Of a stretch of DNA of 64,000 bases, positions 25,809 to 39,821 are shown piece by piece. Source of the stretch: Mycobacterium gordonae (lineage in GTDB: Bacteria > Actinomycetota > Actinomycetes > Mycobacteriales > Mycobacteriaceae); the NCBI RefSeq assembly GCF_017086405.1, contig NZ_CP070973.1, positions 5,364,739 to 5,428,738 of the forward strand, given 5' to 3'. Below the pieces are notes generated by a model. The model saw nothing but the letters and a program-made list of their open reading frames with translations. It was not told the origin of the DNA and ran no database searches. Positions within the stretch are counted from its first letter, which is position 1, and the number at the start of each line of letters is the position of its first letter. A program made the translations under genes and the position numbers.

Positions 25809-26534
25809 ATGAAGACCCTGAAGGTCTCCTCGATCGCAAAGACCGCCCTTTACGCCCTGGCAGCCAGCGGGGTCGCCAGCGCCGTCGCGTTGGGGCTCGC
25901 CGGCCCCGCCGCGGCCGGGACCGGCACCATGTACGGCGACCCGACCACCGCGGCCCAGTACTGGCGTCACCAGAACTACGACGACTGCGCCATCATGTCC
26001 AGCGCCGACGTGGTCGGACAGATCACCGGCAAGCTGCCCTCGGAGCGGGCCATCATCAAGGTCGCCCAGTCCACCCCCAGCGCCTCGCACCCGGGTTCGA
26101 TCTACGTCAAGCCCGCCGACAAGAACGACCCCAACTCGGGCATGGGAACTGACCCGGACGACCTGCCGACGCTGTTGGCGCACTACGGAATTCACGCCAC
26201 CAACACCGATGAGGACAGCGCCGGCCGGACCGGTGTCGCCACCGGGATGGAGGCCCTCGAGCAGTACCTCGGCAGCGGTCACGCCGTCATCGTCGGACTC
26301 AACGCCGAGATGATCTGGAACCAGCCGATCGAGAACAGCGGCAAGGACGGCCAGCCACGCGCCGACCACGCTGTGGTGGTGACCGGAGTCGACACCGCCA
26401 AAGGCATCGTGCACCTCAACGACAGCGGCAGCAAGAACGGCAAGGACGAGCAGATCCCGATGGCCGTCTTCATCAAGGCCTGGGCCACCAGCCACAACTT
26501 CATGAGCGTCACCCAGGAGACGCGTAAGGGCTGA
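25809..26534 (+). CDS. Secreted C39-like (papain-fold) peptidase, copy 1
   Basis: This 241-residue protein has a signal peptide (hydrophobic residues 12-33, cleavage likely after GPAAA near residue 36). The mature domain resembles the Peptidase_C39_2 family. The likely catalytic Cys60 is in QNYDDCAIMSSADVVGQ, the His at about 187 in ADHAVVVTGVD, and the Asp at about 204 in VHLNDSGS, giving the Cys-His-Asp order expected of papain-fold peptidases. It is the positional counterpart of Rv1268c, though that match was not verified. A hairpin in the leader overlaps its ribosome-binding site, and a terminator-like hairpin follows. The substrate is unknown; it may act on peptides or on peptidoglycan cross-links outside the membrane. 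Confidence 0.75.
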   Translation: MKTLKVSSIAKTALYALAASGVASAVALGLAGPAAAGTGTMYGDPTTAAQYWRHQNYDDCAIMSSADVVGQITGKLPSERAIIKVAQSTPSASHPGSIYVKPADKNDPNSGMGTDPDDLPTLLAHYGIHATNTDEDSAGRTGVATGMEALEQYLGSGHAVIVGLNAEMIWNQPIENSGKDGQPRADHAVVVTGVDTAKGIVHLNDSGSKNGKDEQIPMAVFIKAWATSHNFMSVTQETRKG

Positions 26535-26653: not shown

Positions 26654-27379
26654 ATGATGACCAACAAGATCGCTGCCGTCGCCAGGACGGCCCTGCTGGC
26701 CCTGCTGGCCGGTACGGCCGCGGGGTCTGTGGCGCTGGGTCTGGCCGCCCCCGCCGAAGCGTCCGCGGGCGGCATCGTCTACGGCGATCCCGCGGCAGCG
26801 GCCAAGTGGTGGCGCCTGCAGAAGTATGACGACTGCGCCATCATGGCAAGCGCCGACATCGTCGGCCAGATGACCGGCAACGAACCGTCGGAGCATGCCA
26901 TCATCGAGGTGGCGCGGTCGACGCCCAGCACCAGGCACCCCGGCTCGATCTACATCCAGCCCGCCGACCCACAGCACCCGGATTCCGGCAACGGCACCAA
27001 CCGCCTGGACATCCCGGCGCTGCTCGCGCACTACGGCGTGGGCTCGAAGACGACCGACGACGACGAGGCCGCCGGGAACGGCATCGCCACCGGCATGGAC
27101 GCCCTCAAGCATTACCTGGGCAGCGGCCACGCCGTCATCGTGAGCGTCAACGCCGAAATGATCTGGGGTGAGCCGATTGAAAACAAGGACGACGAAGGCA
27201 ACCCGGTGTCCGACCATGCGGTGGTGGTCACCGGCGTGGATACCCGCAAGGGCGTCGTGCACCTCAATGACAGCGGCAGCAAGAACGGCCGCGACGAGCA
27301 GATCCCATTGGAACTCTTCGCCAAGGCATGGGCGACCAGCCACCATTTCCTGCTGTACACCGTGGCCACGGTCAAATGA
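26654..27379 (+). CDS. Secreted C39-like (papain-fold) peptidase, copy 2
   Basis: This is a paralogue of the preceding gene with the same length (241 residues), a signal peptide ending near PAEASA, and the same putative catalytic set: Cys in QKYDDCAIMASADIVGQ, His in SDHAVVVTGVD, Asp in VHLNDSGS. Surface segments such as the DPQHPDSGNGTNRLD loop differ, suggesting a different substrate. AAAAGGA precedes ATG 26654 (ATG 26657 also possible). The leader hairpin seen before copy 1 is absent here, so the two copies are probably controlled differently. Confidence 0.75.
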   Translation: MMTNKIAAVARTALLALLAGTAAGSVALGLAAPAEASAGGIVYGDPAAAAKWWRLQKYDDCAIMASADIVGQMTGNEPSEHAIIEVARSTPSTRHPGSIYIQPADPQHPDSGNGTNRLDIPALLAHYGVGSKTTDDDEAAGNGIATGMDALKHYLGSGHAVIVSVNAEMIWGEPIENKDDEGNPVSDHAVVVTGVDTRKGVVHLNDSGSKNGRDEQIPLELFAKAWATSHHFLLYTVATVK

Positions 27380-27660: not shown

Positions 27661-28821
27661 ATGGCTGGGAGCGCGATGATGGACACACATCTCGAGTTCG
27701 GTGTGCTCGGACCGCTGGAGATGAAGATCGACCGGGCCCTGGTGCCCCTGGGAACACCCAAGCAGCGGGCCGTGCTGGCCATGCTGGTGATCAACCGCAA
27801 CCGGCCCGTCGGGGTCGACACGCTGATCACCGCCTTGTGGGACGAATGGCCGCCATCGGGGGCGCGCGCCAGCATCCACTCCTACGTGTCCAACCTGCGC
27901 AAGCTGGTCGGCGCCGCCGGAGTCGACCCCCGCCTGGTGCTGGCCGCGGCGCCACCGGGCTACCGACTCACCATCCCCGAAAACACCTGCGATCTGGGAC
28001 GGTTCATCGCCGAGAAGACGGCGGGTGTGCACGCCGCCGCATCGGGCAGCTTCGAACAGGCCAGTCGGCATCTGTCGGCGGCGCTGCGGGAATGGCGCGG
28101 ACCGGTTCTCGACGATCTGCGTGATTTTCCATTCGTCGACTCCTTCGCCACCGCCCTGGTGGAGGACAAGATCATCGCGCACACGGCAAAAGCGGAGGCC
28201 GAGATCGCGTGCGGACGGGCGTCGGCGGTGATCACCGAACTCGAGGCGTTGACGGTGGAGCACCCCTACCGGGAGCCGCTGTGGGCGCAGCTGATCACGG
28301 CGTACTACCTCACCGACCGCCAGTCCGACGCCCTGAACGCCTATCGCCGCGTGAAAGCGACCCTCGCCGACGACCTCGGAATCGATCCCGGTCCGACACT
28401 GCGGGCGCTCAACGAGAAGATCCTGCGCCAGGAAACTCTGGACGTGAAACAGAACGCCAAGGTGACCGCTGTGGGAACCGTCACCGTGCTGGACAAGCGC
28501 ACCATGGCCGCGACCCAGAAAGTGGCCGCCTACCTACGCGACGTTGCCACCGGCCACGACTACCCGCTGCGTTCGGCGGCGACCCGGATCGGCCGCCTCA
28601 GCGACAACGACATCGTCCTGGACAGCGCGAACGTCAGCCGACACCATGCCGTCATCGTGGACACCGGGACCAACTACATCATCAACGACCTGCGGTCCTC
28701 CAACGGTGTGCACGTGCGGCACCAGCGGATCCGCACCGCGGCCACCATCCACGACGGAGACCACATCCGGATCTGCGACCACGAGTTCACCTTCCAGATC
28801 GCTGCGCACACGCAGGCCTGA
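27661..28821 (+). CDS. embR: Transcriptional regulator EmbR (winged helix-BTAD-FHA)
   Basis: This 386-residue SARP-like regulator (388 in M. tuberculosis) controls arabinosyltransferase genes and is phosphorylated by PknH. There is an OmpR-type winged helix in the first about 100 residues (RASIHSYVSNLRKLVG), a bacterial transcriptional activation (BTAD) domain to about 265, and a C-terminal FHA domain. The phosphothreonine-binding residues are all present in RIGR, NVSRHHAV and RSSNGVH. ATG 27661 (MAGSA...) was chosen because it matches the known EmbR N-terminus. It lies directly upstream of a receptor kinase, as in the embR-pknH pair of M. tuberculosis. Confidence 0.95.
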   Translation: MAGSAMMDTHLEFGVLGPLEMKIDRALVPLGTPKQRAVLAMLVINRNRPVGVDTLITALWDEWPPSGARASIHSYVSNLRKLVGAAGVDPRLVLAAAPPGYRLTIPENTCDLGRFIAEKTAGVHAAASGSFEQASRHLSAALREWRGPVLDDLRDFPFVDSFATALVEDKIIAHTAKAEAEIACGRASAVITELEALTVEHPYREPLWAQLITAYYLTDRQSDALNAYRRVKATLADDLGIDPGPTLRALNEKILRQETLDVKQNAKVTAVGTVTVLDKRTMAATQKVAAYLRDVATGHDYPLRSAATRIGRLSDNDIVLDSANVSRHHAVIVDTGTNYIINDLRSSNGVHVRHQRIRTAATIHDGDHIRICDHEFTFQIAAHTQA

Positions 28822-29192
28822 CAAAGCACGCCGGTAGCGGGTGAATGTGCCACGTGCACAATGACTTCCGCGGTGTAGTCAGCCGGATTCCGGCAGCGCC
28901 GGGGCGGGCGCGGGCGCGGAGGTGAGCGGGTACCCGGGCAGCGGCGGGGTGGCCATTGCCACAAGACTTTTCGTGATCGCCGGCAGTCGAGCGCCAGCCG
29001 GACCCGGCCGTTAGCGTCACCATCACGACAACATGTGCGGTTTTCGGGTGAGGGTGTTGGCAGTCTTGTTGGCAAGCACCCGCCGTCCCGATTACCGTCA
29101 TGATTGCTGAGGCCGGTGGTTGCGCTCCATGCAATACCTGAAGGCTGTTGATAGTGTCGGCGGGATTTCGGGTTCATCGAGGAGGATCGGCA
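28822..29192. other. Intergenic region between embR and the first receptor kinase
   Basis: About 370 bp without a supported gene. The end nearest the kinase holds TGTTGATAGTGTCGGCG (29146-29162), which is repeated upstream of the second kinase, and AGGAGG just before the start. The rest shows nothing I could interpret. Confidence 0.5.
29146..29162 (+). promoter_or_regulatory. Conserved element upstream of kinase 1 (shared with kinase 2)
   Basis: The 17 bases TGTTGATAGTGTCGGCG occur identically at 29146-29162 and 37823-37839, 30 and 26 bases before the two kinase start codons. The GATAGT part could be a -10 box. Flanking bases diverge, so conservation of this block suggests function or recent duplication. 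Confidence 0.45.
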
Positions 29193-31022
29193 ATGAGCGA
29201 GGCACCAGACTCGCGGGTGGGCTCGACGTTCGGGCCCTACCACCTCAAGCGGTTGCTGGGCCGCGGTGGGATGGGCGAGGTCTACGAGGCCGAGCACACC
29301 GTCAAGGAGTGGACGGTGGCCGTCAAGCTGATGACCGCTGAGTTCAGCAAGGACCCGGTCTTCCGGGAGCGCATGAAGCGCGAGGCCCGCATCGCCGGGC
29401 GCCTACAGGAACCGCACGTGGTGCCGATCCACGACTACGGCGAGATCGACGGCCAGATGTACCTCGAAATGCGCATGATCGAGGGCACCGACCTGGACAG
29501 CGTGCTCAAACGCTTCGGCCCGCTGACCCCGCCGCGCGCAGTCGCGATCATCACCCAGATCGCCTCAGCCCTGGATGCCGCCCACGCCGCCGGGGTCATG
29601 CACCGCGACGTCAAACCCCCCAACATCCTGGTCACCCGCGACGACTTCGCCTACCTGGTCGACTTCGGCATCGCCAGCGCCACCACCGACGAGAAGCTCA
29701 CCCAACTGGGCACCGCCGTCGGGACCTGGAAGTACATGGCCCCGGAACGGTTTTCCAACGACGAGGTCACCTACCGCGCCGACATCTACGCCCTGGCCTG
29801 CGTGCTCTACGAATGCCTGACGGGGAGTCCGCCGTACCGTGCCGACAGCGCCACGACGCTGGTGACCGCGCACCTGATGGACCCGGTGCCGCAGGTCAGC
29901 GCCGCGCGCGCCGGCATCCCCAAGGGCTTCGACTCCGTCATCGCCCGCGGCATGGCCAAAAAGCCCGAGGACCGCTACGCCAGCGCCGGTGATTTCGCGC
30001 GGGCCGCGCACGACGCGTTGAGCGACCCGGACCAGGACCACGCCGAGGACATCCTGCGTCGCAGTCGGGAATCGACGCTGCCCGGCACCGCGGTGGCACC
30101 CTCGATACCGACCGGCCCGACACCGCCGCCCGCCGCGCCACCGCCGCAGTACTCGCCACCGCCCGCCTACGGCGACCCGATCGGCTCGGGGCCGTTGCAG
30201 CGGCAGTCGCCGACGAGCGCGCCCTCGTGGTCGCCCGGGAGCGGTCCGATACCGGCGAGTGGGCCCATCCCCGCCCAGGGTCAACCCACCCAGGCGCCGC
30301 AGTACTTCGGACAGAGCGGCGGCTGGGGCGGTGCCCCGTCCGGCCCGCAGCAGCCCGGCCCGCCGACCTGGAACCAGGGCGTTCAGCCCGGCGGCAAGCG
30401 CAGCCCGTGGCCCATCGTGGCGGGCGCCGCGGCACTGGTCGTAGTGCTCATCGTGGCCGGCGTCGGCATCTGGTTGGCCACGCGCCCGGACGACACCAAG
30501 TCGGCGACGGACACGACCACCTCGACCACCACCAGCTCCGGCAAGCCGACGACCACCAAGAGTGCGCCGGCGACCACCACGGCGGGCGGTGACCCGCAGA
30601 GCAGGTTGCTTTCGATGCTGCCCTCCGGCTACCCGTCGGGAACGTGCACGACGACCACCCCGAAGCCGAACAGCGTGTGGACCGGCACGATCGCCATGGT
30701 CGACTGCGGACAGAACACCAATCAGGGCGGTCCCAGCCGCGCGATCTATGGGCTGTTCCCCAACCTCGACTCACTGAAGCAGGCGTTCAACGACGACATC
30801 GCCGCCGTGCAGCTCGCGAACTGCCCTGGCGAGGGTCCGTCACCGGACGGCTGGCACTACGACCGGGACCCGACGGTCACCGCCGGAATGATCGCCTGCG
30901 GAACCTACAAGAACCACCCGAACGTGATCTGGAGCAACGAGGGCAAGCTCATGCTCAACGACGTCTTCGGTGATCCGGCAACGATCGAAGACCTGCACAA
31001 CTGGTGGATGAAATACGGCTGA
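29193..31022 (+). CDS. Receptor-like Ser/Thr protein kinase 1 (PknH-related kinase domain, different ectodomain)
   Basis: This 609-residue membrane kinase has a Hanks-type domain at about 10-275: GRGGMGEVYEAEH glycine loop, VAVKLM lysine near 45, MHRDVKPPN near 137, VDFGIAS near 157, activation loop with TAVGTWKYMAPE. A Pro/Ser-rich juxtamembrane linker follows to about 400 and one membrane segment (PIVAGAAALVVVLIVAGVGIW) at about 408-428. The extracellular part has a Thr-rich stalk and a sensor with four cysteines (GTCTTTT, VDCGQN, ANCPGEG, IACGTYK). This ectodomain is not the PknH_C type. It sits right after embR, so EmbR is a likely substrate. Confidence 0.9.
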   Translation: MSEAPDSRVGSTFGPYHLKRLLGRGGMGEVYEAEHTVKEWTVAVKLMTAEFSKDPVFRERMKREARIAGRLQEPHVVPIHDYGEIDGQMYLEMRMIEGTDLDSVLKRFGPLTPPRAVAIITQIASALDAAHAAGVMHRDVKPPNILVTRDDFAYLVDFGIASATTDEKLTQLGTAVGTWKYMAPERFSNDEVTYRADIYALACVLYECLTGSPPYRADSATTLVTAHLMDPVPQVSAARAGIPKGFDSVIARGMAKKPEDRYASAGDFARAAHDALSDPDQDHAEDILRRSRESTLPGTAVAPSIPTGPTPPPAAPPPQYSPPPAYGDPIGSGPLQRQSPTSAPSWSPGSGPIPASGPIPAQGQPTQAPQYFGQSGGWGGAPSGPQQPGPPTWNQGVQPGGKRSPWPIVAGAAALVVVLIVAGVGIWLATRPDDTKSATDTTTSTTTSSGKPTTTKSAPATTTAGGDPQSRLLSMLPSGYPSGTCTTTTPKPNSVWTGTIAMVDCGQNTNQGGPSRAIYGLFPNLDSLKQAFNDDIAAVQLANCPGEGPSPDGWHYDRDPTVTAGMIACGTYKNHPNVIWSNEGKLMLNDVFGDPATIEDLHNWWMKYG

Positions 31023-31319
31023 TCGAAGTCGAATGCCCAAGCGCCACAATCACATCGGGTGGTCGCGATGGGCGAGTCGCCGGGCTTGACGGAACCGCGT
31101 GTCGAGCCCAGCCGCGGCTAAGGCGACATCGACGGACAGCTGGCCCTTCTAGATGCGCCTCATCAAGGGCATCGACCTTGGCAGCCTGCGCACCCGCCAC
31201 GGCCGTGGCCGGCTCCACCCGCCGACGCCGTGCCAAGCTACTTCTGAGCCGGCGGTCGCGGCAGGCACGGTCCGCAGGACGTCATGATTCGCGCGGTCGG
31301 GTGTCAGCGGAGGCGTGGG
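31023..31319. other. Intergenic region between kinase 1 and FHA-ABC 1
   Basis: About 300 bp with no supported gene. The last bases GTGTCAGCGGAGGCGTGGG provide the ribosome-binding site of the transporter and resemble the GTAGCGGAGGCGTAG before the second copy. No other structure was recognised. Confidence 0.4.
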
Positions 31320-33857
31320 ATGGATGAGTTGACTACGGAGCCCGCCGGGTTGCGGGTGCGTGGGGGTGGTCGTCGTTGGGTGCTGGCCTCGGGGCGGGTG
31401 TGGACGGTGGGGCGTTCGGGTGAGTCCGATATTCAGTTGGACAATCCGCGGGTCTCGCGGGTGCATGCGGTGTTGGAGGCCACTGGGTCGGGGTGGGTGT
31501 TGTCCAATCGCAGCAGCAACGGCATGTATGTGGCGGGTGCGCGGGTGGAGCGGGTGGTGATCGCCGATCAGCCGGTGACGGTGGTGTTGGGATCGGCGAC
31601 CTCGGGAGAGCAGGTGGAGTTTCATCCCGGCCTGGGGAGCACCGGGCCGGTGTCGATCGGGCAGGCCACGACCAGGGTGGACCCGCTGCCGCTGCCGGTA
31701 CCGACGCGACCCGACGCCGCCGCCGAAACCCCCGAGACCGCCCCGACCACCGAGCTGGCGTTGCCGCCGCTGCCCAGCGATGAGCTGGGGCTGGGCACCC
31801 CGCCGGGGGTGCAGACCACCTCGCTGCGCACCCCGACCGCGGTGCATGCGATCGACGCTCAGACCATCAGCATCGGGCGCGCCCCGGAGAACACCGTGGT
31901 GTTACACGACCTGCTGGTCTCGCGCCGCCACGCCCTGCTGCGGCGCACCCCCGCGGGCTGGGAACTGCTCGATAACCACTCCGCCAACGGCACCTACGTC
32001 AACGGCACCCGCATCACCCGCGCGGTCATCGGCCCCGACGACATCGTGGGCATCGGCCACCAGCTGCTGCACCTGGCCGGCGAGCGCCTCGTGGAATACG
32101 TCGACACCGGCGACATCTCCTATGAAGCCGCCAACCTGCACGTCGAAACCCACGCGGGCCGAGGGCAAGCCAAAGTCCTACTCGATGACGTCAGCTTCGT
32201 GTTGCCCCAACGCAGCCTGCTGGCCGTCGTGGGCCCCTCCGGCGCCGGCAAGTCCACCCTGCTGGGCGCGCTGACCGGCTTTCGCCCCGCCACCACCGGC
32301 ACCGTGCGCTATGACGACCGCGACCTGTATGACAACTACCCCGAACTGCGCCACCGCATCGGCTTCGTCCCCCAAGACGACATCCTGCACACCCCCCTGA
32401 CCGTGCGCCGCGCCCTGAACTACGCCGCCCGCCTGCGCTTTCCCCACGACGTCAGCGCCACCGAACGCACCCAGCGCATCGAAGAAGTCCTCACCGAACT
32501 CGGCCTGGCCACCCAAGCCGACCAACGCATCGACTCGTTGTCCGGCGGCCAACGCAAACGCACCAGCGTCGCCCTGGAACTGCTGACCAAACCCTCTCTG
32601 CTGTTCCTGGACGAACCCACCTCCGGACTGGACCCCGGCTACGAAAAATCAGTCATGCAAACCCTGCGCACCCTGGCCGACGACGGCCGCTCAGTGGTCG
32701 TGGTCACCCACAACATCGCCCACCTCAACATGTGCGACCGCCTGCTGGTCCTGGCCCCCGGCGGCCGCCTGGCCTACTTCGGCCCACCCCAACAAGCCCT
32801 GGCCTACTTCGGCTGCACCGACTTCGCCGACCTGTTCATCCTGCTCGAAAACGACACCGACACCGACTGGACCACCCGCTACAACACCTCCCCCCTACAC
32901 GCCGCCTTCACCCCCACCCCCACCAACCACCCCCACACACCCCGACCCGAACACCCCACCAAACCCAAACCCCAACCCAAAGCCCAACAAAGCCCCCTGG
33001 CCCAATTCGCCATCCTGTCGCGGCGCTACCTCGCCGTCATCGCCGCCGACCGCCAATACACCCTGTTCCTACTCGCCCTCCCCCTGCTGCTGAGCCTGTT
33101 CACCTACGCCGTCCCCGGCGACGCCGGACTCTCCCTGGCCAACGCCATCACGCAGCAATCCAGGCAACCTACCCAGTTGTTGGTGCTGCTCGTCATCGGC
33201 GGGGCACTGATGGGGTGCGCGGGCTCCATCCGCGAGATCGTCAAGGAACAGGCGATCTACCGGCGCGAACACGGCATCGGACTGTCCGGCGCCGCCTACC
33301 TCGCCTCCAAACTCGTTGTGCTGGGCGTTATCTCCGGTTTGCAGGGGTTGATCTTCGGATTCCTCGGAGTCGCTTTCCTGCCGCCGCCCGACGACTCGCT
33401 GCTGCTGCAGTCCGGCAGCCCCGAGCTGCTTCGTCATGTCGGTTCGGCCGAGATCGCGGCCGCCGTCGTCGCCGTGACCGTGGTGTCGATGATCCTCGGC
33501 CTGCTCATCTCGGCACTGATCAGCAACGCCGACCGCGGCATGCCGCTGCTCGTGCTGGTCGTCATGGCCCAACTCGTGCTCTGCGGCGGCATGTTCGCCG
33601 TCAAAGACCGCATCCCACTGGAGCAGCTCGCCTGGCTCTCCCCCTCCCGCTGGGCCTACGCCATGGCGGGCTCGTCGCTCGGGGTGAACTACATCCGCCT
33701 CACCGACACCGACCCGATGTGGACCCACGACCGTGGGCACTATCTGACCGCCCTGGGGATGTGTTCGGCCCTGGGCCTGGCGATGGTGCTCCTGCTCGCC
33801 ATGCGACTACGCCGTCTCGATCGGCAGCCCAGGACCCGCAAGACCGCCCGCTGGTGA
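31320..33857 (+). CDS. FHA-ABC transporter, Rv1747-like (copy 1)
   Basis: This 845-residue ABC-2 exporter has two N-terminal FHA domains: about 20-95 with VGRSGESDI, RVSRVHAV, RSSNGMYV; and about 180-255 with IGRAPENTV, LVSRRHAL, HSANGTYVNG. The NBD has Walker A GPSGAGKST near 303, signature LSGGQRKRT near 406 and Walker B LLFLDEPTSGLD near 429. A Pro-rich linker and about six membrane helices (578-840) follow. The inter-FHA linker carries several Thr (ATTRVDPLP, TPETAPTTEL) that could be kinase sites. In M. tuberculosis Rv1747 is phosphorylated by its neighbour PknF. Here kinase 1, immediately upstream, is the probable partner. Residues from the first FHA to NAI near 610 are identical to copy 2. 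Confidence 0.92.
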   Translation: MDELTTEPAGLRVRGGGRRWVLASGRVWTVGRSGESDIQLDNPRVSRVHAVLEATGSGWVLSNRSSNGMYVAGARVERVVIADQPVTVVLGSATSGEQVEFHPGLGSTGPVSIGQATTRVDPLPLPVPTRPDAAAETPETAPTTELALPPLPSDELGLGTPPGVQTTSLRTPTAVHAIDAQTISIGRAPENTVVLHDLLVSRRHALLRRTPAGWELLDNHSANGTYVNGTRITRAVIGPDDIVGIGHQLLHLAGERLVEYVDTGDISYEAANLHVETHAGRGQAKVLLDDVSFVLPQRSLLAVVGPSGAGKSTLLGALTGFRPATTGTVRYDDRDLYDNYPELRHRIGFVPQDDILHTPLTVRRALNYAARLRFPHDVSATERTQRIEEVLTELGLATQADQRIDSLSGGQRKRTSVALELLTKPSLLFLDEPTSGLDPGYEKSVMQTLRTLADDGRSVVVVTHNIAHLNMCDRLLVLAPGGRLAYFGPPQQALAYFGCTDFADLFILLENDTDTDWTTRYNTSPLHAAFTPTPTNHPHTPRPEHPTKPKPQPKAQQSPLAQFAILSRRYLAVIAADRQYTLFLLALPLLLSLFTYAVPGDAGLSLANAITQQSRQPTQLLVLLVIGGALMGCAGSIREIVKEQAIYRREHGIGLSGAAYLASKLVVLGVISGLQGLIFGFLGVAFLPPPDDSLLLQSGSPELLRHVGSAEIAAAVVAVTVVSMILGLLISALISNADRGMPLLVLVVMAQLVLCGGMFAVKDRIPLEQLAWLSPSRWAYAMAGSSLGVNYIRLTDTDPMWTHDRGHYLTALGMCSALGLAMVLLLAMRLRRLDRQPRTRKTARW
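31342..33149 (+). repeat. 1,808-bp direct repeat, copy 1
   Basis: This segment matches 35262-37069 at a constant offset of 3,920 bp, and I saw no mismatch by eye. It covers both FHA domains, the NBD and the first membrane helix. Identity stops abruptly at both ends. Further shared patches follow at 33234-33315 and 33474-33596. Confidence 0.9.
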
Positions 33858-33897
33858 TCGAGATGTTTGCTTAATGCCCGAAAAATGGGTCTGGCCA

Positions 33898-33928
33898 AGC
33901 GAATACCGGCAGGTTTACGCTATTCGCT
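33898..33928. promoter_or_regulatory. Inverted repeat upstream of lprA copy 2
   Basis: AGCGAATA (33898-33905) and TATTCGCT (33921-33928) form a perfect 8-bp inverted repeat with a 15-nt spacer, 72 bp before the lprA2 start. It could bind a dimeric regulator or form a leader hairpin. The first lprA copy does not have it. Confidence 0.4.
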
Positions 33929-33999
33929 GGCTTTGGTGCGCCCTCCAGATCAGTTTGCCCCGTGGCAACGCTCCGGTTGCCTCAACGAAGGAGATGTCT

Positions 34000-34734
34000 A
34001 TGAAACTGAAGCTCTGGTCCCGAGCCGGCGCCGGGGCCGCAGCAGCGGTCGTGGTGACGGCCCTGGTGCTCACCGGCTGTGGCAGTCCCAAGAACAGCAC
34101 GTCCGGCAGCGGGTCCAACGCACCCAACGTCGACGCCGCGAGCACCGTCAAACAGGCCGCGGAGGCGATGCGCAAGGTCACCGGGATGCACGTCAGCCTC
34201 ACCGTTACGGGCTCGGTGCCCAATCTGGAGGTGACCAAGCTCGACGGCGACGTCTCCAACACGCCGCAGACCGTGGCCAACGGCACCGCGACGCTGACGG
34301 TCGGCAAGAGTCCCGTCGACTCGAAGTTCGTCTTCGTCGACGGCCACCTCTACTCCGATGTCGCAGAACCCGGGAAATTCACCGACTACGGCAACGGCGC
34401 ATCGATCTATGAAGTCTCCACGCTGCTCGATCCCGACAAGGGCCTGGCCCACTTGCTGGCCAACCTGCAGAGCCCGAAAGTGAGCGGCACCGAGCAGATC
34501 AACGGCGTCGCGACCACGAAGATCACCGGTACATCGTCGACTGACGACGTCGCAACGCTGGCCGGGTCACGCCTGAGCCCGCAGAACGCGCCGCCCACCC
34601 CGACCACTGTCTGGATCGCCTCGGACGGCTCCTACCACCTGGTCAAGATCGAAATCACCCCGGTCGAGAACGGGTCGGTGTCGATGACCATGTCGGAGTG
34701 GGGCAAACAAGTCACCGCGACCAAGCCGGTCTAG
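34000..34734 (+). CDS. LprA-like lipoprotein, LppX_LprAFG family (copy 2)
   Basis: This 244-residue paralogue of the lprA product at 24544-25287 has lipobox LVLTGC with Cys27 and the same LppX_LprAFG domain (KQAAEAMRKVTGMHVSLTV, FVFVDGHLYSDV, MSEWGKQVTATKPV). ATG 34000 was preferred over 33994 because it lies six bases after AAGGAG. It lies between the two FHA-ABC transporters, in the same order lprA-DUF4189 as copy 1. The probable role is lipid carriage or display in the envelope; the lipid is unknown. Confidence 0.92.
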   Translation: MKLKLWSRAGAGAAAAVVVTALVLTGCGSPKNSTSGSGSNAPNVDAASTVKQAAEAMRKVTGMHVSLTVTGSVPNLEVTKLDGDVSNTPQTVANGTATLTVGKSPVDSKFVFVDGHLYSDVAEPGKFTDYGNGASIYEVSTLLDPDKGLAHLLANLQSPKVSGTEQINGVATTKITGTSSTDDVATLAGSRLSPQNAPPTPTTVWIASDGSYHLVKIEITPVENGSVSMTMSEWGKQVTATKPV

Positions 34735-34778
34735 CACCTCGTGGAACCCGATCTTTTTCAGCGCGGAAAGGAACCATC

Positions 34779-35168
34779 ATGGGATTGACCGCTTTTCAGG
34801 CGCGCTTTCCAGGAGGCGCGGTGGTCGCACTGGCCGGCGTGGCGGCGGTGACGACGTTGCTGATCGCGCCGGCGCCGACCGCACGCGCCGACGGCCAGTA
34901 CGGCGCGATCGCCTACTCGCCGTCGGGGCAGCTGTTCGGCCGAACCAAGGACGCTCCGTCGCGAGCCGCCGCGGAGAGCGCCGCGATGAGCGCGTGCGGC
35001 AAGTCCGACTGCAAGGTTCTGGTCTCCTTCTCCGAATGCGGTGCGGTCGCCGAAAACAACGCCGGGGATCACGCCGGAGGGTACGGGTCGACACTGCTCG
35101 CCGCGGAGAGGGACGCCATGACGCGGCTCGGCACCGCGGGATGGATCGGCACCTGGCTCTGCAACTAA
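34779..35168 (+). CDS. Secreted DUF4189 protein (copy 2)
   Basis: This 129-residue exported protein has a hydrophobic segment (AVVALAGVAAVTTLLIA) and likely cleavage after TARA near residue 37. The mature domain repeats the DUF4189 pattern: QYGAIAYSPSG, MSACGKSDCKVLVSFSECGAV, GTWLCN. Four cysteines match copy 1. GAAAGGAA precedes ATG 34779. It lies 44 bp after the lprA copy and 65 bp before FHA-ABC copy 2. Function unknown. Confidence 0.86.
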   Translation: MGLTAFQARFPGGAVVALAGVAAVTTLLIAPAPTARADGQYGAIAYSPSGQLFGRTKDAPSRAAAESAAMSACGKSDCKVLVSFSECGAVAENNAGDHAGGYGSTLLAAERDAMTRLGTAGWIGTWLCN

Positions 35169-35233
35169 AGTCGATGCGCCCCGCCCGCCCGCGCGCTGAT
35201 CGGGGCGGCGTGGTCGGTGTAGCGGAGGCGTAG

Positions 35234-37747
35234 ATGGACGAGGTGTCGGGGGTACCGGAGACCGCCGGGTTGCGGGTGCGTGGGGGTGGTCGTCGTTGGG
35301 TGCTGGCCTCGGGGCGGGTGTGGACGGTGGGGCGTTCGGGTGAGTCCGATATTCAGTTGGACAATCCGCGGGTCTCGCGGGTGCATGCGGTGTTGGAGGC
35401 CACTGGGTCGGGGTGGGTGTTGTCCAATCGCAGCAGCAACGGCATGTATGTGGCGGGTGCGCGGGTGGAGCGGGTGGTGATCGCCGATCAGCCGGTGACG
35501 GTGGTGTTGGGATCGGCGACCTCGGGAGAGCAGGTGGAGTTTCATCCCGGCCTGGGGAGCACCGGGCCGGTGTCGATCGGGCAGGCCACGACCAGGGTGG
35601 ACCCGCTGCCGCTGCCGGTACCGACGCGACCCGACGCCGCCGCCGAAACCCCCGAGACCGCCCCGACCACCGAGCTGGCGTTGCCGCCGCTGCCCAGCGA
35701 TGAGCTGGGGCTGGGCACCCCGCCGGGGGTGCAGACCACCTCGCTGCGCACCCCGACCGCGGTGCATGCGATCGACGCTCAGACCATCAGCATCGGGCGC
35801 GCCCCGGAGAACACCGTGGTGTTACACGACCTGCTGGTCTCGCGCCGCCACGCCCTGCTGCGGCGCACCCCCGCGGGCTGGGAACTGCTCGATAACCACT
35901 CCGCCAACGGCACCTACGTCAACGGCACCCGCATCACCCGCGCGGTCATCGGCCCCGACGACATCGTGGGCATCGGCCACCAGCTGCTGCACCTGGCCGG
36001 CGAGCGCCTCGTGGAATACGTCGACACCGGCGACATCTCCTATGAAGCCGCCAACCTGCACGTCGAAACCCACGCGGGCCGAGGGCAAGCCAAAGTCCTA
36101 CTCGATGACGTCAGCTTCGTGTTGCCCCAACGCAGCCTGCTGGCCGTCGTGGGCCCCTCCGGCGCCGGCAAGTCCACCCTGCTGGGCGCGCTGACCGGCT
36201 TTCGCCCCGCCACCACCGGCACCGTGCGCTATGACGACCGCGACCTGTATGACAACTACCCCGAACTGCGCCACCGCATCGGCTTCGTCCCCCAAGACGA
36301 CATCCTGCACACCCCCCTGACCGTGCGCCGCGCCCTGAACTACGCCGCCCGCCTGCGCTTTCCCCACGACGTCAGCGCCACCGAACGCACCCAGCGCATC
36401 GAAGAAGTCCTCACCGAACTCGGCCTGGCCACCCAAGCCGACCAACGCATCGACTCGTTGTCCGGCGGCCAACGCAAACGCACCAGCGTCGCCCTGGAAC
36501 TGCTGACCAAACCCTCTCTGCTGTTCCTGGACGAACCCACCTCCGGACTGGACCCCGGCTACGAAAAATCAGTCATGCAAACCCTGCGCACCCTGGCCGA
36601 CGACGGCCGCTCAGTGGTCGTGGTCACCCACAACATCGCCCACCTCAACATGTGCGACCGCCTGCTGGTCCTGGCCCCCGGCGGCCGCCTGGCCTACTTC
36701 GGCCCACCCCAACAAGCCCTGGCCTACTTCGGCTGCACCGACTTCGCCGACCTGTTCATCCTGCTCGAAAACGACACCGACACCGACTGGACCACCCGCT
36801 ACAACACCTCCCCCCTACACGCCGCCTTCACCCCCACCCCCACCAACCACCCCCACACACCCCGACCCGAACACCCCACCAAACCCAAACCCCAACCCAA
36901 AGCCCAACAAAGCCCCCTGGCCCAATTCGCCATCCTGTCGCGGCGCTACCTCGCCGTCATCGCCGCCGACCGCCAATACACCCTGTTCCTACTCGCCCTC
37001 CCCCTGCTGCTGAGCCTGTTCACCTACGCCGTCCCCGGCGACGCCGGACTCTCCCTGGCCAACGCCATCGAGAAGATGTCGACACAACCGGGCCAACTCC
37101 TGGTGTTGCTGGTCATCGGTGGCGCGCTGATGGGCTGTGCTTCCTCGATTCGGGAGATCGTCAAGGAACAGGCGATCTACCGGCGCGAACACGGCATCGG
37201 ACTGTCCGGCGCCGCCTACCTCGCCTCCAAACTCGCCGTCCTCGGCGCCATCACCACCGCTCAGGGACTGATCCTGGGCCTGCTCGGCGTGGCATTCCTG
37301 CCCGCGCCGGACCAGTCGGTGGTGATGCCCTGGCCCCGGATCGAGGTAGCCGTGGCGGTGGTGGCGGTGACCGTGGTGTCGATGATCCTCGGCCTGCTCA
37401 TCTCGGCACTGATCAGCAACGCCGACCGCGGCATGCCGCTGCTCGTGCTGGTCGTCATGGCCCAACTCGTGCTCTGCGGCGGCATGTTCCCGGTCAAAGA
37501 CCGCATCCCACTGGAACAGCTCGCCTGGCTCTCCCCCTCCCGCTGGGCCTACGCCATGGCCGCCTCGACCGTCGATCTTAACGATCTGCGGCGGACCGCC
37601 GGCGGAGATCAGGACCCCATGTGGGACTACGACGTCGGTAGCTGGTTGATCGCCGCGGCAGCCTGCGCCGCGCAGGCGGTCGTGCTGGTGGTACTCATCG
37701 TGCTGCGGCTCCGGCGCATGGGGCCGCAACGACGGGCCAGGAAGTAA
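35234..37747 (+). CDS. FHA-ABC transporter, Rv1747-like (copy 2)
   Basis: This 837-residue paralogue of the copy-1 transporter is identical in both FHA domains and the NBD. It differs in the first 15 residues, in parts of the membrane domain (EKMSTQPGQLL loop, a 9-residue deletion near the fourth helix) and in the C-terminal tail (DLNDLRRTAGGDQDPMWDYD). The variable parts are therefore extracytoplasmic loops and the end, while the phospho-reading and ATPase parts are uniform. It lies 118 bp upstream of kinase 2, mirroring the kinase 1-copy 1 pair in opposite order. Confidence 0.92.
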   Translation: MDEVSGVPETAGLRVRGGGRRWVLASGRVWTVGRSGESDIQLDNPRVSRVHAVLEATGSGWVLSNRSSNGMYVAGARVERVVIADQPVTVVLGSATSGEQVEFHPGLGSTGPVSIGQATTRVDPLPLPVPTRPDAAAETPETAPTTELALPPLPSDELGLGTPPGVQTTSLRTPTAVHAIDAQTISIGRAPENTVVLHDLLVSRRHALLRRTPAGWELLDNHSANGTYVNGTRITRAVIGPDDIVGIGHQLLHLAGERLVEYVDTGDISYEAANLHVETHAGRGQAKVLLDDVSFVLPQRSLLAVVGPSGAGKSTLLGALTGFRPATTGTVRYDDRDLYDNYPELRHRIGFVPQDDILHTPLTVRRALNYAARLRFPHDVSATERTQRIEEVLTELGLATQADQRIDSLSGGQRKRTSVALELLTKPSLLFLDEPTSGLDPGYEKSVMQTLRTLADDGRSVVVVTHNIAHLNMCDRLLVLAPGGRLAYFGPPQQALAYFGCTDFADLFILLENDTDTDWTTRYNTSPLHAAFTPTPTNHPHTPRPEHPTKPKPQPKAQQSPLAQFAILSRRYLAVIAADRQYTLFLLALPLLLSLFTYAVPGDAGLSLANAIEKMSTQPGQLLVLLVIGGALMGCASSIREIVKEQAIYRREHGIGLSGAAYLASKLAVLGAITTAQGLILGLLGVAFLPAPDQSVVMPWPRIEVAVAVVAVTVVSMILGLLISALISNADRGMPLLVLVVMAQLVLCGGMFPVKDRIPLEQLAWLSPSRWAYAMAASTVDLNDLRRTAGGDQDPMWDYDVGSWLIAAAACAAQAVVLVVLIVLRLRRMGPQRRARK
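35262..37069 (+). repeat. 1,808-bp direct repeat, copy 2
   Basis: Partner of 31342-33149, same length, no difference seen by eye. Extra matching patches lie at 37154-37235 (same offset) and 37367-37489 (offset reduced by 27 bp). Confidence 0.9.
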
Positions 37748-37865: not shown

Positions 37866-39821
37866 ATGAGCGACACGCAGAGTTCGCGCGTCGGGTCGAT
37901 GTTCGGGCCGTACGAACTCAAGCGGTTGCTGGGCCGCGGTGGGATGGGCGAGGTCTACGAAGCCGAGCACACCGTCAAGGAGTGGACGGTGGCCGTCAAG
38001 GTCATGACCGCTGAGTTCAGCAAGGACCCGGTCTTCCGGGAGCGCATGAAGCGCGAGGCCCGCATCGCCGGGCGCCTACAGGAACCGCACGTGGTGCCGA
38101 TCCACGACTACGGCGAGATCGACGGCCAGATGTACCTCGAAATGCGTCTCATCGAGGGCACCGACCTGGACAGCGTGCTCAAACGTTACGGCCCGCTGAC
38201 CCCGCCGCGCGCGGTCGCGATCATCACCCAGATCGCCTCAGCCCTGGATGCCGCGCACTCCGCCGGGGTCATGCACCGCGACGTCAAACCCCCCAACATC
38301 CTGGTCACCCGCGACGACTTCGCCTACCTGGTCGACTTCGGCATCGCCAGCGCCACCACCGACGAGAAGCTCACCAAGATGGGCACCGCCGTCGGGACCT
38401 GGAAATACATGGCCCCGGAACGGTTTTCCAACGACGAGGTCACCTACCGCGCCGACATCTACTCGCTGGCCTGCGTGCTCTACGAATGCCTGACCGGCGG
38501 TCCGCCGTACCGCGCCGACAGCGCGGGGTCCCTGGTCACGGCGCATTTGATGAACCCGGTTCCGCAGGTCAGCACCGCACGCGCCGGCATCCCCAAGAGC
38601 TTCGACTCCGTCATCGCCCGCGGCATGGCCAAAAAGCCCGAGGACCGCTACGCCAGTGCGGGTGACCTGGCGCTGGCCGCCCACGAAGCTCTGAGCTCGC
38701 CCGACCAGGACCACGCGGAGAACATCCTGCGTCGCAGCCAGGAAGCCACGCTGCCCGGTCCGCCGACCGCGATGTCGCCACCCACCATGCCCGCCGGCGC
38801 GCTCGCTCCGCCGCAGCGCCCGGGACCGCCAAGTGCCCCGCCACCATCGTCGCGGCCGCCCGCCCCGCAGTACAGCGGTAGCTCCGGACCGTCGGGGCCC
38901 CCAGGTGCGGCACCAGGTCCGGCACAGCAGCAGCGGCCGTCCACGCCGTCCGGCCATCCCGCGTGGAACCCCGTCAGTGGACCGATTCCGGCCGCGGGCC
39001 CGCACCCGCAGAACAATCCTCCGTATCACCAGAGCGGCGGTTGGGGCGCCGGACCGCCGAGCACGCCGATGTCATCTGGCCCGATCCCGTCGGCGTGGAG
39101 CCAGGGCCACCCGCCCCAGCCGGCACCAGCCAAGCGCAATCTTTGGCCCATCATCGCCGCAACCGCCATCGTGGCGGTGCTCGTCGTCGCGGGGGTGATC
39201 ATCTGGCAAGTCGCCCAACCGGATCCGGCGCCCAAACTCAAACCCGTCGCCGAGGACCGGTTGAGTTCGCTGCTGCTGACGGCCTCAGAGGTCAACGCGG
39301 TGATGGGTTCATCGACGATGCAGCCCGGCAAGCCGATCACGACGGTGGACTCCTCACCGGTGACGATGTCGATCCCCGACTGCCAAGGTGCCGTGTACGG
39401 CAGTCAGGGTCCGGCGTATGCCGGTAGCGGCTACACCGGGATCAGCGGGTTGGTCTCGTCCGAGCCGGGTGACAGTTACGACCACTGGGTCAACCAGGCC
39501 GCCGTCACCTTTCCGACCGCAGACAAAGCAAAGTCTTTCCTGCAGAGCTCGCTGAACAGATGGAAGGGCTGCGCGGGCAAGACTGTCAGCGTCACCAACT
39601 CGGGCAAGACCTATCGATGGACCTTCTCCGAGGTCCGGGGGACCTCGCCGAAGATCACGGTGATCGACGCTCAGGAAGGCGCCAACGGCTGGGAGTGCCA
39701 GCGGGCGATGGAAGTGGCCAACAACGTGATCGTCGACGTCAACGCCTGCGGCTATCAGATCACCGACCAGGGCGGCCAGATCGCCGACAAGATCGTCGCC
39801 AAGGTCAACAAGGAGAAGTAG
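37866..39821 (+). CDS. pknH: Receptor Ser/Thr protein kinase PknH-like (kinase 2)
   Basis: This 651-residue kinase has a catalytic domain (10-275) nearly identical to kinase 1: GRGGMGEVYEAEH, VAVKVM, MHRDVKPPN, VDFGIAS, TAVGTWKYMAPE. A Pro-rich linker leads to a membrane helix at about 427-450 (IIAATAIVAVLVVAGVIIW). The ectodomain is the PknH_C type, with four conserved cysteines in PDCQGAVY, GCAGK, ECQRAM and NACGYQ. On the ectodomain this is the better PknH orthologue, although it is separated from embR by the duplicated block. A TGGAGG ribosome-binding site precedes ATG 37866. Confidence 0.93.
   Translation: MSDTQSSRVGSMFGPYELKRLLGRGGMGEVYEAEHTVKEWTVAVKVMTAEFSKDPVFRERMKREARIAGRLQEPHVVPIHDYGEIDGQMYLEMRLIEGTDLDSVLKRYGPLTPPRAVAIITQIASALDAAHSAGVMHRDVKPPNILVTRDDFAYLVDFGIASATTDEKLTKMGTAVGTWKYMAPERFSNDEVTYRADIYSLACVLYECLTGGPPYRADSAGSLVTAHLMNPVPQVSTARAGIPKSFDSVIARGMAKKPEDRYASAGDLALAAHEALSSPDQDHAENILRRSQEATLPGPPTAMSPPTMPAGALAPPQRPGPPSAPPPSSRPPAPQYSGSSGPSGPPGAAPGPAQQQRPSTPSGHPAWNPVSGPIPAAGPHPQNNPPYHQSGGWGAGPPSTPMSSGPIPSAWSQGHPPQPAPAKRNLWPIIAATAIVAVLVVAGVIIWQVAQPDPAPKLKPVAEDRLSSLLLTASEVNAVMGSSTMQPGKPITTVDSSPVTMSIPDCQGAVYGSQGPAYAGSGYTGISGLVSSEPGDSYDHWVNQAAVTFPTADKAKSFLQSSLNRWKGCAGKTVSVTNSGKTYRWTFSEVRGTSPKITVIDAQEGANGWECQRAMEVANNVIVDVNACGYQITDQGGQIADKIVAKVNKEK

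Follow-up and report, generated by a model that had tools for sequence, protein, structure and literature searches.

The window, the whole 64,000-nucleotide stretch of Mycobacterium gordonae DNA that was analysed, contains genes for an EmbR-like regulator, a PknH-type kinase, an exporter (copy A), a lipoprotein, a DUF4189 protein, a second exporter (copy B) and a PknH-type kinase with a PknH_C sensor domain, in this order (Table 1). The ectodomain of the first kinase gave no PknH_C match in Pfam. Each exporter combines two FHA domains, an NBD and an ABC2 membrane domain in one chain, the arrangement of the Rv1747 type, and a PDB sequence search with the exporter returned generic ATPase-domain matches (ABCA, ABCB and ABCG). 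The order embR, PknH-type kinase, FHA-ABC exporter, PknH-type kinase is that of the RD900/tbd2 locus, except that the place of the single tbd2 between the kinases is taken by a pair of exporters that flank two more genes. In gene order and domain content, the locus matches a variant of embR-pknH1-tbd2-pknH2 (RD900) with tbd2 doubled. Four neighbouring genes have 90–94% nucleotide identity to those of M. gordonae DSM 44160. Tandem C39-like peptidase genes (25809–26534 and 26654–27379; 73% alike in DNA), which are paired in relatives too, lie between the first DUF4189 gene and embR. Related species have a third PknH-type kinase between the first kinase and copy A (L021, 5865–7547; L074, 8191–9987; L034, 7208–8923), which is absent from the window.

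Table 1. Genes and segments of the doubled exporter locus (positions in the window)
Feature	Position	Strand	Basis
EmbR-like regulator (Trans_reg_C, BTAD, FHA)	27661..28821	+	Pfam
First PknH-type kinase (pknH1 position)	29148..31022	+	Pfam Pkinase; synteny
Copy A: FHA-FHA-NBD-ABC2_membrane exporter, 857 aa, tbd2/Rv1747-like	31284..33857	+	ORF; Pfam FHA x2, ABC_tran, ABC2_membrane
Homogenised core, copy A: FHA1, linker, FHA2, NBD, TM1	31342..33149	+	1,808 bp exact; core clusters by genome
V2, copy A type-specific segment: predicted extracytoplasmic loop 2 (aa 698–723)	33375..33452	+	never homogenised in four genomes; fixed A/B residues
Identical TM4-TM5 patch between V2 and V3	33474..33596 (copy 37367–37489)	+	sequence comparison
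V3, copy A type-specific segment: predicted loop 3 end + TM6 (aa 790–850)	33651..33833	+	divergence, tree, fixed residues
LppX_LprAFG lipoprotein between copies	33874..34734	+	Pfam PF07161, 2.7e-62
DUF4189 protein between copies	34698..35168	+	Pfam PF13827
Copy B: architecture as copy A, 837 aa	35234..37747	+	ORF; Pfam
Homogenised core, copy B	35262..37069	+	1,808 bp exact; core clusters by genome
V2 counterpart, copy B	37295..37345	+	sequence comparison; fixed A/B residues
V3 counterpart, copy B	37544..37735	+	divergence, tree, fixed residues
Second PknH-type kinase, PknH_C sensor domain (pknH2 position)	37866..39821	+	Pfam Pkinase, PknH_C

Direct comparison within the window showed that the cores of the two exporter genes are identical over 1,808 bp, without a single substitution, at an offset of 3,920; the coordinates and offset given for this block in the sequence-only reading are right to the base. 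The same reading described a mosaic tail with two matching patches. Both patches are exact, and the first (33234–33315, 82 bp) also lies at the offset of 3,920, but the second (123 bp) is not in this register as had been claimed: an intervening 27-nt indel shifts its offset to 3,893. In the pairwise alignment proposed as a check, copies A and B differed at 162 of 2,496 aligned coding bases, and these differences were clustered rather than evenly spread. The longest clean run was 1,808 bases, as compared with 197 when the same 162 differences were shuffled 2,000 times. The sequences flanking the exporter genes are unrelated between the copies at the offset of 3,920.

We searched 396 genomes of the genus, 45 of which had a strong match. 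Where the tails allowed a locus to be typed, most loci carried a single B-type copy adjoining pknH. The complete two-copy arrangement, with the lipoprotein and DUF4189 genes between the copies, was found in the window genome (G000), G006, G243 and G237. Contigs end or begin inside the repeat when M. gordonae DSM 44160, M. innocens and M. attenuatum are assembled from short reads; with short-read assemblies of the M. gordonae and M. kansasii groups broken here, copy numbers and variant calls at this locus are unreliable. M. ostraviense (L035, 8450–12450) has rearranged remnants with both tail types present: copy A is interrupted and shows rearrangement and several exact 99-bp repeats, and copy B is a 3′ remnant. 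M. asiaticum 1165133.8 and G121 have copy A only, together with the lipoprotein gene, and M. asiaticum DSM 44297 has a B-type copy only, without it; two genomes labelled M. asiaticum (L027 and L028) retain different single copies. Some single-copy species have A alone and others B alone, so neither type can be required in all species. The distribution of two-copy, split and single-copy loci indicates that the duplication is older than the species compared, and the B position, with its wider distribution, may be the ancestral one.

Within the four two-copy genomes, the dS values between the FHA2-NBD segments of copies A and B were 0, 0, 0.019 and 0, against 0.12–0.66 between species. The V2+V3 segment (residues 698–723 and 790–850) gave values of 0.85–1.3 between copies A and B within genomes and 0.30–0.86 between orthologues. 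The trees were opposed in the same manner. The core tree paired the copies by genome and rejected the A|B split (delta lnL 1089, AU 3e-40), and the V2+V3 tree was compatible with the A|B split and rejected pairing by genome (delta lnL 296, AU 4e-5). The locus thus has two marks of concerted evolution: paralogues within a genome are closer than orthologues across species, synonymous sites included, and the duplication predates the species compared, as seen from the tail tree and from the tails and intervening genes, which are orthologous by position. Given the conflict between the core tree and the tail tree, an old duplication must be combined with recurrent homogenisation of the core. At the level of sequence, these results show that the duplication predates the split of the gordonae-like and kansasii-like lineages and that the core was homogenised separately in each, and they support repeated homogenisation by gene conversion between old duplicates. 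The gene conversion put forward in the sequence-only reading is supported by these likelihood gaps and by synonymous sites that are identical within genomes and diverged across species.

To locate the segments relative to the membrane, we relied on topology predicted from hydropathy, which places V2 and V3 as given in Table 1; an AlphaFold model of copy A (with nine relatives) was discarded for topology and fold searches, its mean pLDDT being 37.6. V2 and V3 differ by 30–45% between the copies. In the gordonae/asiaticum group, 25 of 25 residues fixed by A/B type fell within residues 704–726 or 796–847, and none was found elsewhere in 575–856. Divergence had been attributed earlier to the extracytoplasmic loops, and every type-fixed residue indeed maps to the predicted loop 2 or loop 3/TM6. 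These comparisons show that V2 and V3, both predicted to face outward, are unhomogenised in all four two-copy genomes. Loop 1 is unprotected, being homogenised in G237 and present in a B-like version in MAG26_A. Between V2 and V3, the TM4-TM5 patch has homogenised four-fold sites in three genomes, and the tree test of this short segment only leans to homogenisation (orthologous tree, AU 0.09). The FHA linker stays copy-specific in G006 and G243. Both copies of the window linker are somewhat nearer to B (68–71% versus 62–64%), which weakly suggests a transfer from B to A.

These results, taken together, make it probable that the exporters are old tandem tbd2 paralogues in which recurrent ectopic gene conversion homogenises the cytoplasmic part and selection keeps the outward segments distinct. 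The tbd2 gene of the embR-pknH/RD900 locus was duplicated long ago, giving copies A and B. Recurrent ectopic conversion between them keeps the FHA domains, the ATPase domain and TM1 identical within each genome, and conversions overwriting loop 2 or loop 3/TM6 would have been removed by selection. Both exporters might then read the same phospho-signal of the adjacent PknH-type kinases through their shared FHA domains, and release different cargo or pass it to partners that differ, for example the LppX_LprAFG lipoprotein encoded between them. Such a common input with a varied output, already proposed from the sequence alone as an object of selection, is plausible. The retained loop differences do point to selection, whereas the identity of the core comes from conversion and not from selection.

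Selection on the loops is deduced from their persistence, and divergence alone could block conversion. Neutral conversion limited by homology, with loops that escaped long ago since divergence stops pairing and strand exchange, would require no selection on output. We consider this rather unlikely, although the divergence of V2 and V3 is enough to hinder homologous exchange and loop 1, which is less type-conserved, was homogenised in some lineages. The TM4-TM5 patch, exact over its whole length in the window, lies between V2 and V3 and was nevertheless homogenised in three lineages, so exchange occurs beyond a diverged stretch. The tails are also constrained within types, with a dN/dS of about 0.1 between the closest species (G006 and G243).

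Independent recent duplications in each lineage would likewise yield core clustering by genome. They are very improbable, as the tails, the lipoprotein and the DUF4189 protein are orthologous by position across species and the A–B tail dS exceeds species divergence; we rejected them as contradicted by the tail tree, in which tails group by position. Equally slight is the probability of an assembly artefact, a concern raised in the initial reading, whether by false duplication of one copy or by false homogenisation of the pair during assembly or polishing. Short reads resolve an exact repeat of 1.8 kb with difficulty, and several drafts break here. However, four independent assemblies contain two in-register copies with distinct flanks; the other three assemblies consist of 1, 2 and 5 contigs, and three of all four of 1, 2 and 2 contigs. 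The G243 core moreover shows a few real differences, so the copies were not simply collapsed. Purifying selection alone, without exchange, is hardly credible even though the protein sequence of the NBD is highly conserved across species, because selection at the protein level cannot hold synonymous sites identical, and 0 of 211 four-fold sites of FHA2+NBD differ between the copies in the window genome as compared with 63 of 172 between the window genome and G237.

We carried out a similar comparison of the two PknH-type kinases within genomes, using the first 150 amino acids of the kinase domains. These were 96–98% identical in the window genome, 98–99% in G006, 97–100% in M. asiaticum DSM 44297 and 97–100% in G121 (nt), and the ectodomains were about 35–55% alike. 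The kinase-domain tree paired both copies in G121 (support 99) and in M. asiaticum DSM 44297 (support 100). In the gordonae group the kinases separated by position; any exchange there would therefore be older. A rule for the whole locus can be proposed only tentatively: conversion may keep the cytoplasmic signalling parts (both kinase domains and the exporter FHA and ATPase domains) interchangeable while selection preserves distinct outward parts (kinase sensors and exporter loops 2 and 3). If this is true, the locus would hold two sense-and-export lines built on one common cytoplasmic chassis.

Repeats elsewhere in the window genome were checked by a DNA search and in the Rv1747-like FHA-ABC array at 1.49 Mb (L072; G000 contig 1, 1488000–1504000). 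The array has four well-diverged tandem paralogues, and G006 has three there. No segment of the four paralogues is homogenised, and their G006 orthologues are far closer. Two lprA-like lipoprotein genes, 72% alike, are not homogenised either. Thus, homogenisation characterises the exporter pair and does not affect every tandem pair in the genome. Another Rv1747-like pair, in G245 (L087, 9051–11675 and 13945–16485), shows 100% identity from FHA2 into the early part of the membrane region, together with a diverged FHA1 and smaller patches, and is possibly a second, independent case of domain-limited homogenisation.

Most known cases of concerted evolution in bacteria involve whole genes. Judged from its sequences, the exporter pair provides a clean new example in a bacterial membrane protein in which concerted evolution is domain-limited (one-sided). 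Conversion is limited to one side of the membrane in four species, and the excluded part points to the residues that distinguish the exporters. The 25 fixed residues, in two segments, constitute a short list of candidates for what determines the choice of cargo or partner in exporters of the Rv1747/tbd2 type, the substrates of which are not yet settled.

Prokaryotic paralogues have been described that undergo long-lasting concerted evolution, with recurrent conversion across species at synonymous and non-synonymous sites (PMC6053082). In the available portions of that report the cases are handled as whole genes, whereas conversion in the window affects a membrane protein on one side only; the text of that report contains neither ‘ABC transporter’ nor ‘Mycobacterium’. 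Our literature search found no paper that describes gene conversion at tbd2 or exporter loops that escape it. In TLR1 and TLR6, the conserved part is the intracellular domain. These mammalian tandem membrane-protein paralogues, the divergence of which is limited by gene conversion (PMC2077338), are eukaryotic receptors, unlike the bacterial exporter pair. Rv1747 is an FHA-FHA-ABC exporter encoded beside pknF (PMC5549992, PMC3908365); its FHA I binds a phosphorylated partner and its loss lowers PIM levels (PMC5549992). It shares with copies A and B the domain order FHA-FHA-NBD-ABC2 membrane domain and the adjoining gene for a partner kinase, but lies at a separate locus, and the Rv1747-like array of the window genome is not homogenised. 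RD900 of the M. tuberculosis complex consists of embR-pknH1-tbd2-pknH2, with highly similar kinase domains, and its deletions have been proposed to result from recombination between the PknH-type kinase genes (PMC7785237). The window shares the order of embR, PknH-type kinase, FHA-ABC exporter and second PknH-type kinase, but has two tbd2 copies around the lipoprotein and DUF4189 genes where RD900 has one; recombination would cause deletions in RD900, whereas exchange in the window locus homogenises the exporter cores.
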